Source: Kocuria tytonicola
GTDB lineage: Bacteria > Actinomycetota > Actinomycetes > Actinomycetales > Micrococcaceae
Assembly (NCBI RefSeq): GCF_003687455.1
Contig: NZ_PHOA01000011.1
Location: 1-40,686, forward strand
Reading direction: 5' to 3'
Length of the DNA stretch: 40,686 nt
Both the position numbers and the translations under genes were made by a program. This document shows positions 29,239 through 35,714 of the stretch, piece by piece. How positions within the stretch are numbered: the stretch's first letter is position 1; each line of letters starts with the position of its first letter. The notes beneath the pieces were generated by a model. It was given only the letters and a program-made list of their open reading frames with translations, had not been told where the DNA came from and made no database searches.

Positions 29239-30210
29239 ATGAGCCACCCTGGACCCCCCGTTGACCCTGCCTCCCTGCGCGTGGTCTCCCTGCCGGAGCA
29301 GGAGCTGTTCGATGCGGTGGTGCCGCACGTCACGGACTTCCGCTGCGTCCTGTGGGACATGGTGGGGGAGCCGGAGGGGTGTGCCCGCGAGGAGGTGGAT
29401 GTCGCGGTGGCCCCCTACTACAGTGCGCGCTGGCGGAGGGATCCCTCCGTCCTGCGGGACGTCTCCCTGCTCCAGTTGCAGTCGACGGGCTACGACGGGG
29501 TGCCCGAGCTGCTCGGGGACGGCACCGCACTCGCCGCGGCCGGCTGGGTCCACGCCGCCGGAACCGCCGAGATCGCGCTGGGTCTGATCCTCGCGGCCCA
29601 GCGCAACCTGGACCGTGCCGTGCGGCAGCAGGCGGACGGTGTCTACCGGCAGTTCTTCTCCCGCTCGCTCGCGGACTCCCGGGTCACCGTGGTGGGGGTT
29701 GGGGAGATCGGGCGGGCTGTGGTCGCGCGGCTGGAGCCGTTCGAGGTGGAGCTCACCCGGGTGGCCAGCACGGCGAGGGAGGACGAGCGGGGGAGCGTCC
29801 ACGGCATCGCCGAGCTGGGGGAGATCTTGCCCCGCACGGACGTCCTGGTGCTCGCCCTGCCCCTCAGCGACGCGACCCGTGGACTCGTGGGCGCCGAGGC
29901 CCTGGCGGCCCTGCCGGACGACGCACTGGTGGTCAACGTGGGCCGCGGGGCCGTGGTGGACACCGTGGCGCTGAGCGCGGAGGTGTGCTCGGGAAGGCTG
30001 CGGTGCGCGCTCGACGTCGTGGAGCCCGAGCCCCTGCCGGGAGACCACCCGCTCATGAGCGCCCGGGGGTCGATCATCGCGCCCCACGTGGGCGGTTCCA
30101 ACTCCTCGTACCTGCCACGGATGCGGGACCTCCTCCTGCAGCAGCTCGCCGCCCTCCGGCAGGGCAGGGCGCCGCAGTTCCTGGTCAGCCCGGGGCGTCT
30201 CATGATCTGA
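29239..30210 (+). CDS. D-isomer-specific 2-hydroxyacid dehydrogenase
   Basis: The 323-residue NAD(P)-dependent enzyme reduces a 2-keto acid to a D-2-hydroxyacid or the reverse. The nucleotide motif is Val-Gly153-Val-Gly155-Glu-Ile-Gly158, and the catalytic residues are Arg236 in Asn-Val-Gly-Arg-Gly, Glu264 and His283 in Ala-Pro-His-Val-Gly-Gly-Ser. The acidic residue that normally follows the second strand is not evident (Leu-Thr-Arg-Val-Ala-Ser), which may mean a preference for NADPH. The substrate is unknown; phosphoglycerate or glyoxylate-type substrates are possible. It lies directly before the ilv leader but has its own promoter. Confidence 0.88.
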   Translation: MSHPGPPVDPASLRVVSLPEQELFDAVVPHVTDFRCVLWDMVGEPEGCAREEVDVAVAPYYSARWRRDPSVLRDVSLLQLQSTGYDGVPELLGDGTALAAAGWVHAAGTAEIALGLILAAQRNLDRAVRQQADGVYRQFFSRSLADSRVTVVGVGEIGRAVVARLEPFEVELTRVASTAREDERGSVHGIAELGEILPRTDVLVLALPLSDATRGLVGAEALAALPDDALVVNVGRGAVVDTVALSAEVCSGRLRCALDVVEPEPLPGDHPLMSARGSIIAPHVGGSNSSYLPRMRDLLLQQLAALRQGRAPQFLVSPGRLMI

Positions 30211-30227
30211 GACGAGGTGTCCGCAGA

Positions 30228-30257
30228 TTGACACGATGGTTTCCTGCGTCACACCAT
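30228..30257 (+). promoter_or_regulatory. Promoter of the ilv leader and ilvBNC
   Basis: TTGACA (30228-30233) is a perfect -35. The best -10 at an 18-nt spacing is CACCAT (30252-30257), a weak match, which would start transcription at about the ATG of the leader peptide (30264). Confidence 0.5.
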
Positions 30258-30263
30258 GAGGGC

Positions 30264-30329
30264 ATGACTTCGGCGCTGCGCATCATCATCGACCTCGTAC
30301 CGGTCGTCCTCGTGGGACATCCGGCCTGA
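30264..30329 (+). CDS. ilv leader peptide (attenuation)
   Basis: This 21-residue open frame reads Met-Thr-Ser-Ala-Leu-Arg, then three Ile in a row, Asp-Leu-Val-Pro and Val-Val-Leu-Val, before Gly-His-Pro-Ala and TGA. Ten of its residues are Ile, Leu or Val, exactly the end products of the operon behind it. When these amino acids are scarce, ribosomes would stall here and alter folding of the downstream RNA. It probably has no role as a protein. If the promoter is read correctly the frame is leaderless, as no Shine-Dalgarno precedes it. Confidence 0.85.
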
Positions 30330-30364
30330 GGCGGTCTCGACGCGCGCGTTCCCCAGGCCCTCAG
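30323..30364 (+). promoter_or_regulatory. Antiterminator pairing of the ilv attenuator
   Basis: GGCCTG (30323-30328) can pair with CAGGCC (30354-30359), or CTGAGG (30326-30331) with CCTCAG (30359-30364). Either pairing uses bases of the left terminator arm, so it excludes the terminator. The left partner overlaps the leader stop codon. Confidence 0.6.
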
Positions 30365-30393
30365 CCCACGAGATCCGTGGCAGGGGCCTTTTT
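30355..30393 (+). terminator. Attenuator terminator before ilvB
   Basis: AGGCCC (30355-30360) pairs with GGGCCT (30384-30389), and CCACG (30366-30370) pairs with CGTGG (30376-30380), followed by five T (30389-30393). This is the only hairpin in the window with a classic U-tract, as expected of a regulated intrinsic terminator. Confidence 0.8.
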
Positions 30394-30477
30394 CATGCAC
30401 GACCCCATCCCGGTCGCACCCGCCAGGCACCACCCCGCCGGGCATCCCGCACCCCACAGCACGTAAGGACACAGCAC

Positions 30478-32355
30478 ATGAGTAAGGACCAGCCGATCTC
30501 CCCGGCGGTGATGGCTCAGCGGCGCGCTCCGTCCGCGCCCACGGAGCAGGCCGCCGAGTCGGACCAGGTACTGCTGACCGGTTCCGCCACGGATGTCGTG
30601 GCCCCGGAGGAGATGACCGGCTCGCAGGCCATCATCCGCTCGCTCGAGCTGCTCGGTGTCACGGATGTCTTCGGTCTGCCGGGTGGCGCGATCCTGCCCA
30701 CGTACGACCCGCTGTTGGACACGGACAAGATCAACCACGTGCTCGTGCGCCACGAGCAGGGCGCGGGCCATGCCGCCGAGGGCTACGCCCTGGCCTCGGG
30801 CCGCGTGGGGGTGTGCATTGCCACCTCCGGCCCCGGTGCAACGAACCTCGTGACGGCACTGGCGGACGCCAACATGGACTCCATCCCCATGCTTGCGATC
30901 ACCGGCCAGGTGGCCAGCTCCTCGATCGGCACGGACGCCTTCCAGGAGGCGGACATCGTGGGGATGACCATGCCGGTGACCAAGCACTCCTACCTGGTGA
31001 CCGACGCCCGGGACATCCCCCGGGTGCTCGCCGAGGCCTACCACCTGGCCTCGACCGGCCGTCCGGGACCCGTGCTGGTGGACGTGGCCAAGGACGCCCA
31101 GCAGGGGAGCCTGACCTTCAGCTGGCCGCCGCACGTGGAGCTCAAGGGCTACCGCCCCGTCACCCGGGGGCACTCCAAGCAGATCAAGGAGGCGGCCCGT
31201 CTCATCGCCGAGGCCAGGCGTCCCGTCCTCTACACGGGCGGCGGGGCCATGCGGGCCGACGTCGCCGCGGAGCTGACCGAGCTGGCCGAGCTCACCGGGG
31301 CCCCCGTGGTCACCACCCTGACGGCCCGCGGCATCTTCCCGGACTCCCACCGGCAGAACCTGGGGATGCCGGGGATGCACGGCACGGTGCCTGCGGTGTA
31401 CGCAATGCAGCAGTCGGACCTGCTGATCACGCTCGGCGCGCGCTTCGACGACCGCGTCACCGGTCAGCTGGACACGTTCGCCCCGAACGCGAAGGTGATC
31501 CACGCGGACATCGACCCCGCGGAGATCTCGAAGAACCGGATCGCGGACGTGCCGATCGTGGGGGACCTCAAGCACGTGATCCCGGACCTCACCCAGGCCG
31601 TGCGCCAGGAGTTCGCGGACGCGCAGACCCCGGACCTGACCACGTGGTGGGAGACGCTGGACTCCCTGCGCGAGACCTACCCCCTGGGCTACACGAGCAC
31701 CGACGACGGCCACGGCAGCCCGCAGCACGTGATCGAGCGGATCTCGGCACTGACCGGCCCGGAGGCCGTCTACGCCTCCGGTGTGGGCCAGCACCAGATG
31801 TGGTCCGCCCAGTTCGTGGACTACGAGCGTCCCCGGCAGTGGCTGAACTCCTCCGGCCTGGGCACCATGGGCTTCGCGGTCCCCGCGGCCATGGGCGCCA
31901 AGGTGTCCCAGCCGGACCGCGTGGTGTGGGCGATCGACGGCGACGGCTGCTTCCAGATGACCAACCAGGAGCTCGCCACGTGCGTGCTCAACGACATCCC
32001 CATCAAGGTGGCGGTGATCAACAACTCGTCGCTCGGCATGGTGCGGCAGTGGCAGACGCTGTTCTACGACGGCCGCTACTCCAACACCGAGCTGAACACG
32101 GGCCACGACTCGCGCCGGATCCCCGACTTCGTGAAGCTCGCGGAGGCCTACGGCTGCGCGGCGCTGCGCTGCGAGCGGGACGAGGACGTGGACGCCACCA
32201 TCCAACAGGCGCTGGAGATCAACGACCGCCCGGTGGTGATCGACTTCGTGGTCTCCGCGGACGCCATGGTGTGGCCCATGGTCCCCTCCGGTGTCTCCAA
32301 CGACCAGATCCAGATCGCCCGCAACATGACTCCCGAGTGGAAGACGGAGGACTGA
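30478..32355 (+). CDS. ilvB: Acetolactate synthase, large (catalytic) subunit
   Basis: The 625-residue thiamine-diphosphate enzyme joins two pyruvates, or pyruvate and 2-ketobutyrate, in the first common step of valine, leucine and isoleucine synthesis. The catalytic Glu93 is in [13 protein letters not shown], and the ThDP motif is Gly-Asp-Gly-Cys-Phe-Gln-Met-Thr through to Val-Ile-Asn-Asn. An N-terminal lead of about 45 residues is poorly conserved. The ATG at 30478 has AAGGA 9 nt upstream. The first gene of ilvB-ilvN-ilvC, preceded by the leader peptide and attenuator. Confidence 0.97.
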
Positions 32356-32358
32356 TCC

Positions 32359-32868
32359 ATGAGCCGACACACCCTCTCCGTCCTGGTGGAGGACAAGCCC
32401 GGCGTGCTGACCCGGGTGGCCGGGCTCTTCGCCCGCCGCGCCTTCAACATCCACTCGCTGGCCGTGGGCCCCACCGAACTGTCCGGAATCTCCCGGATCA
32501 CCGTGGTGGTGGACGCGGACGGCGAGCTGCTCGAGCAGGTCACCAAGCAGCTGAACAAGCTCATCAACGTGATCAAGATCGTGGAGCTCGCGCCGGAGGC
32601 CTCCGTGCAGCGGGACCACATCATGGTCAAGGTCCGCGCGGACGCCGCCACCCGGTTGCAGGTCACGCAGGCCGCGGACCTGTTCCGTGCCACCATCGTG
32701 GACGTCTCCACGGAGTCCGTGGTCATCGAGTCCACGGGGTCCCGGGACAAGATCCACGCGCTGCTGGACGTCCTGGAGCCCTTCGGGATCCGCGAGATCG
32801 TCCGCGCCGGCACCGTGGCCCTCGGCCGCGGCCCCAAGTCCATGTCGGACAGGGCGCTGCGACACTGA
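32359..32868 (+). CDS. ilvN: Acetolactate synthase, small (regulatory) subunit
   Basis: The 169-residue regulatory subunit stimulates IlvB and gives feedback inhibition by valine. The N-terminal ACT domain begins [16 protein letters not shown] and includes [11 protein letters not shown]. The C-terminal half has the Ser-Thr-Gly-Ser-Arg-Asp-Lys-Ile segment usual in this subunit. It starts 3 nt after ilvB, with GGAGG before the ATG, consistent with fixed-ratio synthesis. Confidence 0.96.
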
Positions 32869-32965: not shown

Positions 32966-33991
32966 ATGGCCAAGATCTACTACAACGACGACGCCGACCT
33001 CTCGATCATCCAGAACCGCTCCGTGGCCATCATCGGCTACGGCTCGCAGGGCCACGCCCACGCGCTGAACCTGCGCGACTCCGGCGTGGACGTCCGCATC
33101 GGCCTCAACGAGGGCTCGAGGTCCCGCGCCAAGGCGGAGGCCGAGGGCCTGCGGGTGCTCTCCATCGCGGACGCCGCCAAGGAGGCGGACGTGATCATGA
33201 TCCTGACCCCGGACCAGGTCCAGGCGCAGGTCTTCGAGGAGTCCGTCAAGGACAACCTGGACGAGGGCGACGCCATCTTCTTCGCGCACGGCTTCAACAT
33301 CCGCTTCGGCTACATCGAGGCGCCCCAGGGCGTGGACGTGGCCATGGTCGCCCCCAAGGGCCCCGGCCACACCGTCCGCCGCGAGTTCGAGGCCGGGCGC
33401 GGCGTCCCGGACCTCGTGGCCGTGGAGGTCGACGCCTCGGGGCAGGCCCTGCAGCTGGCCCTGTCCTACGCGAAGGGCATTGGCGGCACGCGCGCCGGCG
33501 TCATCGAGACCACCTTCACGGAGGAGACCGAGTCGGACCTGTTCGGCGAGCAGGCCGTGCTGTGCGGTGGTGTGTCCCACCTGGTCCAGTACGGCTTCGA
33601 GACGCTGACCGAGGCGGGCTACCAGCCCGAGATCGCCTACTTCGAGGTGCTGCACGAGCTCAAGCTGATCGTGGACCTCATGGTCGAGGGCGGCATTGCC
33701 AAGCAGCGCTGGTCCTGCTCCGACACCGCCGAGTACGGCGACTACGTCTCCGGCCCCCGCGTGATCCAGCCGGACGTCAAGGAGCGCATGCAGGAGGTCC
33801 TCGCGGACATCCGGAACGGCGCCTTCGCGGACCGCTTCATGAAGGACCAGGCCTCCGGCGCCAAGGAGTTCAACGAGCTGCGCGCCAAGGAGGAGAAGCA
33901 CCCCATCGAGACCACGGGCCGCCAGCTGCGCTCGCTCTTCGCGTGGGAGCAGACGGACGAGGACTACACCGAGGGCACCGCCGCGCGCTGA
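32966..33991 (+). CDS. ilvC: Ketol-acid reductoisomerase
   Basis: The 341-residue class I enzyme rearranges and reduces acetolactate or acetohydroxybutyrate with NADPH. Seen are the nucleotide motif Gly-Tyr-Gly-Ser-Gln-Gly-His-Ala, then Gly-Ser-Arg-Ser-Arg-Ala-Lys around the phosphate-binding loop, [10 protein letters not shown], and metal-site Glu residues in the helical C-terminal domain. The ATG at 32966 has AAGGAGA 10-16 nt upstream. A 97-nt gap after ilvN has no terminator, so it belongs to the same operon. Confidence 0.97.
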
Positions 33992-34160: not shown

Positions 34161-35714
34161 GTGACTGAGCAGACTCCCTTCTACGCGACCACGGCCATCT
34201 CGTACCCGAACGGGCGCCCCCACATCGGCCACGCCTACGAGGCGATCGCCGCCGACACCCTGGTGCGGTTCAAGCGCCTGGACGGGTTCGAGACCCGCTT
34301 CCAGACGGGCACGGACGAGCACGGTCAGAAGATGCAGCAGACGGCCGAGAAGCTCGGCACCACCCCGCGCGAGCTCGCGGACACCAACTCCGCGCGCTTC
34401 CGGGAGATGGACGACGAGCTGGAGATCTCCTACGACCGCTTCATCCGCACCACGGACGCGGACCACGCCGCGGCGTCGCAGGAGCTGTGGCGGCGCATGG
34501 AGGCCAACGGGGACATCTACCTGGACACCTACGCCGGGTGGTACTCCGTGCGGGACGAGGCGTACTACGCGGAGGACGAGACCGAGGTACGAGCGGACGG
34601 GCAGCGCTACTCGATCGGCACGGGCACCGAGTTGACCTGGACCGAGGAGGAGAGCTACTTCTTCCGGCTCTCCCGCTACCAGGACCGCCTGCTCGAGCTC
34701 TACCGGAGCGGGTTCGTGCAGCCGGAGACACGCTCGCACGAGATCGCGTCCTTCGTGGAAGGGGGACTGCAGGACCTCTCCATCTCCCGCACCACCTTCG
34801 ATTGGGGTGTGCCCGTGCCGGGCAACCCGGACCACGTGATGTACGTGTGGGTGGACGCCCTGACCAACTACCTCACCGGTCTGGGCTACCCGGACACCGA
34901 GAACCCCCTGTTCCAGCGGTTCTGGCCCGCGGACGTGCACCTGATCGGCAAGGACATCGCGCGCTTCCACGCCGTGTTCTGGCCCGCGTTCCTGATGTCC
35001 GCGGGACTGGAGTTGCCGCGTAAGGTGTTCGCGCACGGATTCCTCTTCAACCAGGGGGAGAAGATGTCCAAGTCCGTGGGCAACGTGATCGACCCCCACG
35101 CGCTGATCGGGGAGTACGGGTTGGACCCGCTGCGGTTCTTCCTGCTGCGCGAGGTGCCGTTCGGGCAGGACGGCAACTACTCGCACGACGCCATCGTGGG
35201 GCGCATCAACTCGGACCTCGCCAACGACCTCGGCAACCTGGCCCAGCGCAGCCTGTCGATGGTCGCCAAGAACCTGGACGGCACGGTCCCCGGGCCCGGC
35301 GAGCTCACGGCGGAGGACCGGGCGATGCTGGACGAGGCGCGGGCCGTGGTGGCGGAGTACCGCACGGCGTTCGACGCCCTGGCCTTCCACCGGGGGCTCG
35401 AGTCCGTGTGGCGCGTGATCGCCTCCGCCAACCGCTACTTCACGGCCCAGCAGCCCTGGGTGCTGCGCAAGACCGATCCCGGGCGCATGGCCACCGTGCT
35501 GTACACGACCGCCGAGGTGGTGCGCATCGTGGCCGTCCTGGTGCAGCCCGTGATGCCCGGTGCCATGGCGCGGCTCCTGGACCAGCTCGGCCAGCCCGAG
35601 GGGCCGGCCCGCACGTTCGCCGCTCTGGACACCCCGCTGGCCCCCGGCACGCCACTGCCCAAGCCCTCGGGCGTTTTCCCGCGCTACGAGGAGCCCACGG
35701 CGCTCGCGGACTGA
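34161..35714 (+). CDS. metG: Methionyl-tRNA synthetase
   Basis: The 517-residue class I synthetase charges tRNA-Met. The HIGH motif is in [11 protein letters not shown], and the KMSKS loop is [10 protein letters not shown]. The zinc-binding cysteines found in the connective domain of many bacterial enzymes are missing, and there is no C-terminal tRNA-binding (Trbp111-like) extension, which matches the short type common in actinobacteria. The GTG start has a -10 hexamer 6 nt upstream. A good hairpin follows the stop. Confidence 0.96.

Follow-up and report, generated by a model that had tools for sequence, protein, structure and literature searches.

Upstream of ilvB in Kocuria tytonicola lies a short, unannotated open reading frame (ORF) rich in branched-chain residues, and this locus raises the question of whether translation of such a peptide could control transcription of the ilvBNC genes. 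We addressed this question by computational analysis of a 40,686 nt stretch of genomic DNA (contig NZ_PHOA01000011.1; hereafter the window). Three genes on the plus strand of the window encode the acetolactate synthase large subunit (ilvB, 30478-32355; NF005860, 1104.4 bits; TIGR00118, 751.5 bits), the acetolactate synthase small subunit (ilvN, 32359-32868; TIGR00119, 200.3 bits) and ketol-acid reductoisomerase (ilvC, 32966-33991; TIGR00465, 429.1 bits, scanned from 32969). The closest named relatives of the IlvB protein are from Kocuria and share 85, 82 and 78% identity with it. Downstream of ilvC, a methionyl-tRNA synthetase gene is found on the same strand (34161-35714; 648.8 bits, cut-off 598). 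Upstream, and also on the plus strand, is a D-2-hydroxyacid dehydrogenase-like gene (29239-30210), whose best NCBIfam match of 130.2 bits does not reach the model cut-off of 400.

Architecture of the ilvB leader

The stop codon of the dehydrogenase-like gene is separated by 17 nt from a plus-strand -35 element, TTGACA (30228-30233), which is present in exact form in 11 of 11 genus-level leaders. An 18 nt spacer connects this element to a putative -10 element, CACCAT, of the form nANNNT (30252-30257). The predicted transcript start, placed by a distance of 6 nt from the -10 element, is the A of an ATG codon (30264; ATG, 30264-30266). This ATG opens an ORF of 21 residues that ends with a TGA codon (30327-30329; entire ORF, 30264-30329). 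Ten of the 21 residues are Ile, Leu or Val, and the candidate control codons are Ile7-9, Leu11, Val12, Val14, Val15, Leu16 and Val17 (30282-30314). Further downstream, folding predicts an intrinsic terminator (30355-30393) with a stem formed by 30355-30361 and 30383-30389, an inner stem and a T-tract. The terminator hairpin (30355-30389) has a free energy of -20.0 kcal/mol and runs into five T residues (30389-30393). An earlier sequence-only reading of this DNA had proposed both a 21-residue peptide with ten Ile, Leu or Val residues before ilvB and a five-T terminator, and both are present.

Two additional structures emerge from folding of the leader RNA. One is a protector hairpin located inside the ORF (30300-30324), in which 30300-30303 pairs with 30321-30324 and 30306-30310 pairs with 30314-30318. 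The other is an antiterminator (30309-30372), the larger part of which consists of eight perfect pairs between peptide codons (30309-30316) and 30365-30372; its other part joins 30323-30328 in the region of the stop codon to 30354-30359. The sequence-only reading had noticed an alternative pairing over the stop codon, and this pairing is real; the larger part of the antiterminator had gone unnamed there. Compared with 200 dinucleotide shuffles, the stretch from 30264 to 30396 folds more stably than 198. A simple consensus scan of the stretch detected neither the promoter nor the terminator because CACCAT agrees with TATAAT at only three of six positions and because the terminator stem is interrupted. 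Furthermore, no Rfam family (library release 15) reached its gathering score on the stretch, and the only matches in the window are two tRNAs.

We propose that this region is a translation-dependent transcription attenuator that acts on a leaderless message to control ilvBNC, and we assign a probability of roughly 0.8 to this interpretation, for which we infer the start point, translation, stalling and regulation. Our confidence is tempered because one of the folding calculations described below yields a switch in five of the seven leaders of the genus, and not in all of them. Transcription would begin at the leader ATG or a few bases from it, so that the ribosome would start on a leaderless message. 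When charged Ile, Leu or Val tRNA is in short supply, the ribosome would stall in the Ile/Leu/Val run. A stall at about codons 9-12 would free both 30309-30316 and 30323-30328 for pairing with 30365-30372 and 30354-30359, respectively, and a later stall would free the region of the stop codon alone. With the 5' arm of the terminator occupied, polymerase would read into ilvB. When supply is good, the ribosome would reach the TGA codon and cover these segments, and the terminator would form. If the message were left untranslated, the protector hairpin would form and the terminator would win as well.

Conserved promoter spacing and a predicted leaderless start

Regions upstream of ilvB were obtained from 148 of 149 Micrococcaceae genomes, that of the window among them (G125 gave no match). 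A leader was scored when a TTGACA box with at most one mismatch was located 35-38 bp from the start of an ORF carrying at least four Ile, Leu or Val in eight residues, a definition that selects on distance. Such an Ile/Leu/Val-rich ORF is found in 122 of the 148 genomes, with box-to-start distances of 35 (35 leaders), 36 (66), 37 (16) and 38 bp (5). Because the count selects on distance, its controls matter: 20 rounds of dinucleotide shuffling gave a mean of 3.2 genomes (range 1-7), the reverse complement gave 5, and nine other 5 nt distance bins between 20 and 69 gave 8-21 genomes each. When distance is not selected, an exact TTGACA precedes an Ile/Leu/Val-rich ORF by 35-38 bp in 91 of the 148 genomes. 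These exact boxes peak at 36 bp (55 genomes), with 20 genomes at 35 and 14 at 37, and no more than six at any other distance from 15 to 80. A set of 80 named loci that extends past the family contains 40 with a short Ile/Leu/Val-rich ORF and 24 with an exact box at 35-38 bp.

These counts also bear on whether the peptide could be an ORF that arose by chance next to a promoter and terminator of the usual kind. Short ORFs rich in Ile, Leu or Val are not rare, since a loose criterion applied without distance selection finds one in 125 of the 148 upstream regions. However, chance does not reproduce the geometry kept in 122 genomes, for which the shuffle mean is 3.2, and we give this explanation almost no weight.

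Leaders are distributed over 28 of the 32 genera of the family. The 26 genomes scored as being without a leader belong to genera g14 (7), g23 (7), g10 (4), g11 (4), g13 (2), g3 (1) and g24 (1), and they include G087, whose upstream region (L195) is cut to 276 bases by a contig end. By the criteria used, and with the G087 region shortened in this way, none of the 22 genomes of g10, g11, g14 and g23 carries a leader; control of ilvB in these genera may have been lost or replaced. In a separate case (L231, genome G104), the ORF of the leader peptide is intact, and ilvB matches in two overlapping pieces in the assembly, one of which has an internal TGA codon.

Across these 122 genomes, the peptides diverge and the spacing between promoter and start codon stays at 35-38 bp. 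The start codon is ATG in 120 of the 122 family leaders and GTG in two. Among the four closest leaders, 12 codon differences are synonymous and 39 are not, and the nucleotide differences show no excess at third codon positions (27, 18, 22). In the same four leaders, 17 of the 24 amino acid changes that touch Ile, Leu or Val stay within this set of residues. The terminator is also widely maintained: a T-tract hairpin follows the leader in 121 of the 122 family leaders, and all 121 hairpins have free energies of -12 kcal/mol or lower. Shuffled downstream sequences give such hairpins (dG of -12 or lower) in a mean of 31.6 of 122, and hairpins of any stability in 83.6 of 122. The sole exception among the 122 leaders is that of G120, a member of the window's genus in which no T-tract terminator was detected by the criterion used.

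The gap between an nANNNT hexamer and the start codon is 6 nt in 90 of the 122 leaders and 7 nt in 33 (a leader can be counted in both groups). In Streptomyces lividans, the distance between the -10 element (TAnnnT) and the transcript start is 4-9 nt, with a mean of 6.3 (PMC8079986). Because the nANNNT box of the window likewise ends 6 nt before the start codon, transcription should start at approximately 30262-30267, on or next to the leader ATG, if the S. lividans spacing applies. No Shine-Dalgarno-like 4-mer is found at positions -15 to -4 in 109 of the 122 family leaders, and 13 have one. In the window, the promoter spacing puts the predicted start on the start codon, and the only Shine-Dalgarno-like run beside the ATG, GAGGG (30258-30262), ends one base upstream and is too near to serve. 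The conserved 35-38 bp, the scarcity of Shine-Dalgarno-like sequences and the 6-7 nt distance from the -10 element all support the earlier proposal that TTGACA and the weak CACCAT place the predicted transcript start on the ATG of the peptide.

The attenuator could be real and the peptide nevertheless be made from a leadered transcript that starts upstream, for example by use of an in-frame TTG at 30228 or by read-through from the dehydrogenase-like gene. The reading frame is indeed open back to this TTG, GAGG (30214-30217) is located 10 nt before it, and the dehydrogenase-like gene runs in the same direction. However, the conserved TTGACA box itself begins with this TTG. Of the 122 box-to-start distances, 66 are divisible by three; distance is conserved and frame is not. 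The GAGGG run, ending one base before the ATG, also argues against ribosome binding on a longer transcript. We consider a leadered origin of the peptide to be quite improbable, and we favor a leaderless start at the ATG.

Ribosome position and RNA folding in the window and its genus

To describe how ribosome position might affect the terminator, two calculations were used. In the full-transcript calculation, the RNA left free by the ribosome was folded with the A site at each codon and an offset of 13. The computed probability of the window terminator is 0.97 at codons 1-6, and falls to 0.57 at Ile9, 0.28 at Asp10 and 0.03 at Leu11. It recovers to 0.76 at Val12, and positions from codon 13 onward give 0.92-0.97, with 0.97 at the stop codon. 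Varying the footprint offset from 10 to 16 leaves the zone with values below 0.5 inside codons 9-12. Specifically, only stalls at codons 9-12 release the terminator in this calculation, and stalls at Val14-Val17 do not. RNA free of ribosomes adopts the protector hairpin (30300-30324), and the terminator prevails. A switch of this kind is obtained for five of the seven genus leaders that have a terminator. The read-through zones of G083 (codons 7-16), G103 (10-16), G005 (9-18) and G061 (10-15) are all wider than that of the window, and G036 and G134 show none.

The arrested-transcript calculation represents an RNA whose terminator still lacks its 3' arm and a ribosome stalled in the richest Ile/Leu/Val run (Val15 in the window). 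Under these conditions, the outer 5' arm of the window terminator is sequestered at 0.77 when the ribosome stalls at Val15, compared with 0.10 when it occupies the stop codon. All seven genus leaders with a terminator behave similarly, with the 5' arm sequestered at 0.72-0.86 in the stalled state and 0-0.26 at the stop codon; shuffles of the genus leaders give 0.27-0.54, and those of the window still reach 0.44. By folding, a stall at the control codons leads to an alternative pairing that excludes the terminator. The interpretation of the region as a branched-chain attenuator, already put forward by the sequence-only reading, gains support from the terminator, the control codons and the predicted mutually exclusive pairings that depend on ribosome position.

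The helix in the region of the stop codon is position-specific in the 11 genus-level leaders. It has a mean of -16.1 kcal/mol, compared with -5.3 to -8.2 when the paired segment is moved by -48, -36, -24 or +12 nt and -12.1 when it is moved by +20 nt (one leader only). This helix beats 95% of shuffles in five of the 11 leaders; that of the window does not (19% of shuffles do as well). Covariation in this stem, which had been suggested as a check on the proposal, was sought among the 11 genus-level leaders and was not found (own pairings -16.1, crossed pairings -15.9). A MAFFT alignment of these 11 leaders placed the terminator arm wrongly in several rows and was left out of the pair counts.

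Two possible RNA architectures in Micrococcaceae

When the same calculations were extended to the family, the full-transcript read-through zone appeared in 26 of 121 family leaders versus 25 of 121 shuffled leaders, and it fails as a family-wide signature. Codons for Ile, Leu or Val account for 120 of the 239 codons in the low-terminator zone and for 793 of all 1718 codons scored, an enrichment that is hardly perceptible. With the ribosome on the stop codon, full-transcript folding gives a terminator probability of at least 0.8 in 106 of 118 family leaders. In the arrested transcript, the family mean for sequestration in the stalled state is 0.18, below the shuffled value of 0.30, and 31 of 121 leaders exceed their own shuffles. 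Sequestration reaches at least 0.5 in 20 of 121 leaders, comprising seven from the window's genus, six of six from g12, five of seven from g3 and one each from g4 and g13; in the g3 leaders, the stop-codon state is often no lower than the stalled state. On these arrested-transcript results, the classical antiterminator characterizes the window's genus and g12, and not the family as a whole.

The six leaders of g12 (L217, L218, L219, L222, L224 and L225) share the classical logic of the window, with the 5' arm sequestered at 0.81-0.97 in the stalled state and 0.01-0.32 at the stop codon, and their shuffles give 0.42-0.59. The terminator arm of L217-L219 is CCCCGGC, unlike that of the window.

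The family results are relevant to a further explanation, in which the terminator and peptide exist and control is exerted by constitutive early termination, or by a protein or Rho step, in place of classical attenuation. This has been argued for the ilvB leader of Streptomyces coelicolor, where Seliverstov et al. report codon substitutions to be without effect (PMC1262725). Consistent with this view, in 101 of the 114 leaders outside the window's genus the sequestered fraction of the terminator arm stays below one half in the stalled state, and the full-transcript switch is no commoner in the family than in shuffles. In contrast, the antiterminator is predicted in seven of seven leaders of the window's genus by arrested-transcript folding. 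Moreover, control in Corynebacterium glutamicum depended on the valine codons and the ATG of the leader (Morbach 2000, cited in PMC11857589), and attenuation is supported in Mycobacterium tuberculosis (PMC13236596). We judge non-classical control to be unlikely, and translation-dependent attenuation remains our preferred interpretation of the window.

Leaders of many other genera contain a helix between the last peptide codons and bases directly 5' of the terminator (for example, in L092, L121, L124 and L162), and this helix does not overlap the terminator stem. With G-U pairs allowed, it measures at least 7 bp in 85 of 121 leaders, has a mean length of 7.9 bp versus 5.4 bp for shuffled leaders, and beats 95% of shuffles in 72 of 121. 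It persists despite changes in sequence (GCGCGTGGC, GCGCCTGGC, GCGCATGGA, GCACGTGGA, GCGCGTCGC). The window's genus is without this helix (4-6 bp, no better than shuffles), as are g3, g12, g17 and most of g20, and in g22 the helices of 7 bp do not outperform shuffles. We call this arrangement Arthrobacter-type, since its peptide endings recur in named Arthrobacter loci. To affect termination, an Arthrobacter-type helix would need a route other than competition for shared bases; it might, for example, serve as a pause hairpin or impede terminator nucleation. We tentatively suggest, while regarding the full scheme as doubtful, that the Micrococcaceae ilvB leader is leaderless in most genera and that its RNA switch comes in two architectures. 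These would be a Kocuria-type classical antiterminator that takes the 5' arm of the terminator, and an Arthrobacter-type helix of 7-15 bp that pairs the last codons (often GCGCGTGGC) with bases 5' of the terminator and is kept through sequence changes.

The leaderless design of the ilvB leader is already known from related actinobacteria. The ilvBNC attenuator of C. glutamicum (IlvL, MTIIRLVVVTARRLP) resembles that of the window in having a branched-chain-rich peptide before ilvBNC and a terminator hairpin (PMC11857589). Its transcript starts one nucleotide from the start codon and has no ribosome binding site, as is predicted for the window, and the peptide has 15 residues versus 21 (PMC11857589). 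The absence of a ribosome binding site was noted by Morbach 2000 (as cited in PMC11857589), and the peptide is also named in PMC4046766. Unlike the leader of the window, that of C. glutamicum has been tested experimentally, and it is described by a model of three hairpins (H1, H2 and H3) that includes an anti-antiterminator covering the start region; partial deletion of its terminator hairpin is recounted to have had little effect (PMC11857589). The ilvB leader of Corynebacterium diphtheriae is leaderless, with a transcript start mapped at the leader start position, whereas that of the window is predicted; its peptide (MNIIRLVVITTRRLP) differs from that of the window (PMC5784534). In S. lividans, ilvL (MRTRILVLGKRVG) is, like the window's leader, associated with hairpins and a uridine-rich stretch before ilvBHC, and its leaderless start has been mapped; this peptide has 13 residues with four branched-chain codons by the paper's count, versus 21 residues and ten Ile, Leu or Val in the window (PMC8079986). 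The ilvB1NC attenuator of M. tuberculosis shares with the window an upstream ORF and antiterminator/terminator logic in which a ribosome at the stop codon masks the antiterminator, and its control codons, LVVI, are unlike those of the window (PMC13236596); the passages cited do not describe its upstream ORF as leaderless. For the window, a leaderless start stands as a prediction, and it is less of an anomaly than the sequence-only reading implied, given the ilvB precedents in S. lividans and the two Corynebacterium species.

In 2005, Seliverstov et al. compiled candidate ilvB leaders with terminators from Corynebacterium, Mycobacterium and Streptomyces; their genome list includes neither Kocuria nor Arthrobacter (PMC1262725). 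Corynebacterium upstream ORFs and an ilvB-II motif (PMC10272879), as well as mycobacterial leaderless transcripts and small ORFs (PMC4633059), have also been described. A literature search for an ilvB leader in Kocuria, Arthrobacter or relatives returned no report among the matches listed. Neither the family-wide distribution of the leader nor the division between two RNA architectures was encountered among those matches.

These findings extend the leaderless ilvB attenuator, with statistical support, from a few model actinobacteria to most sampled genera of a family. They also indicate that the peptide of the window, although unannotated, very probably has a function. Furthermore, the contrast between two architectures would offer a handle on why the ilvB leader has looked classical in some actinobacteria and not in S. 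coelicolor.
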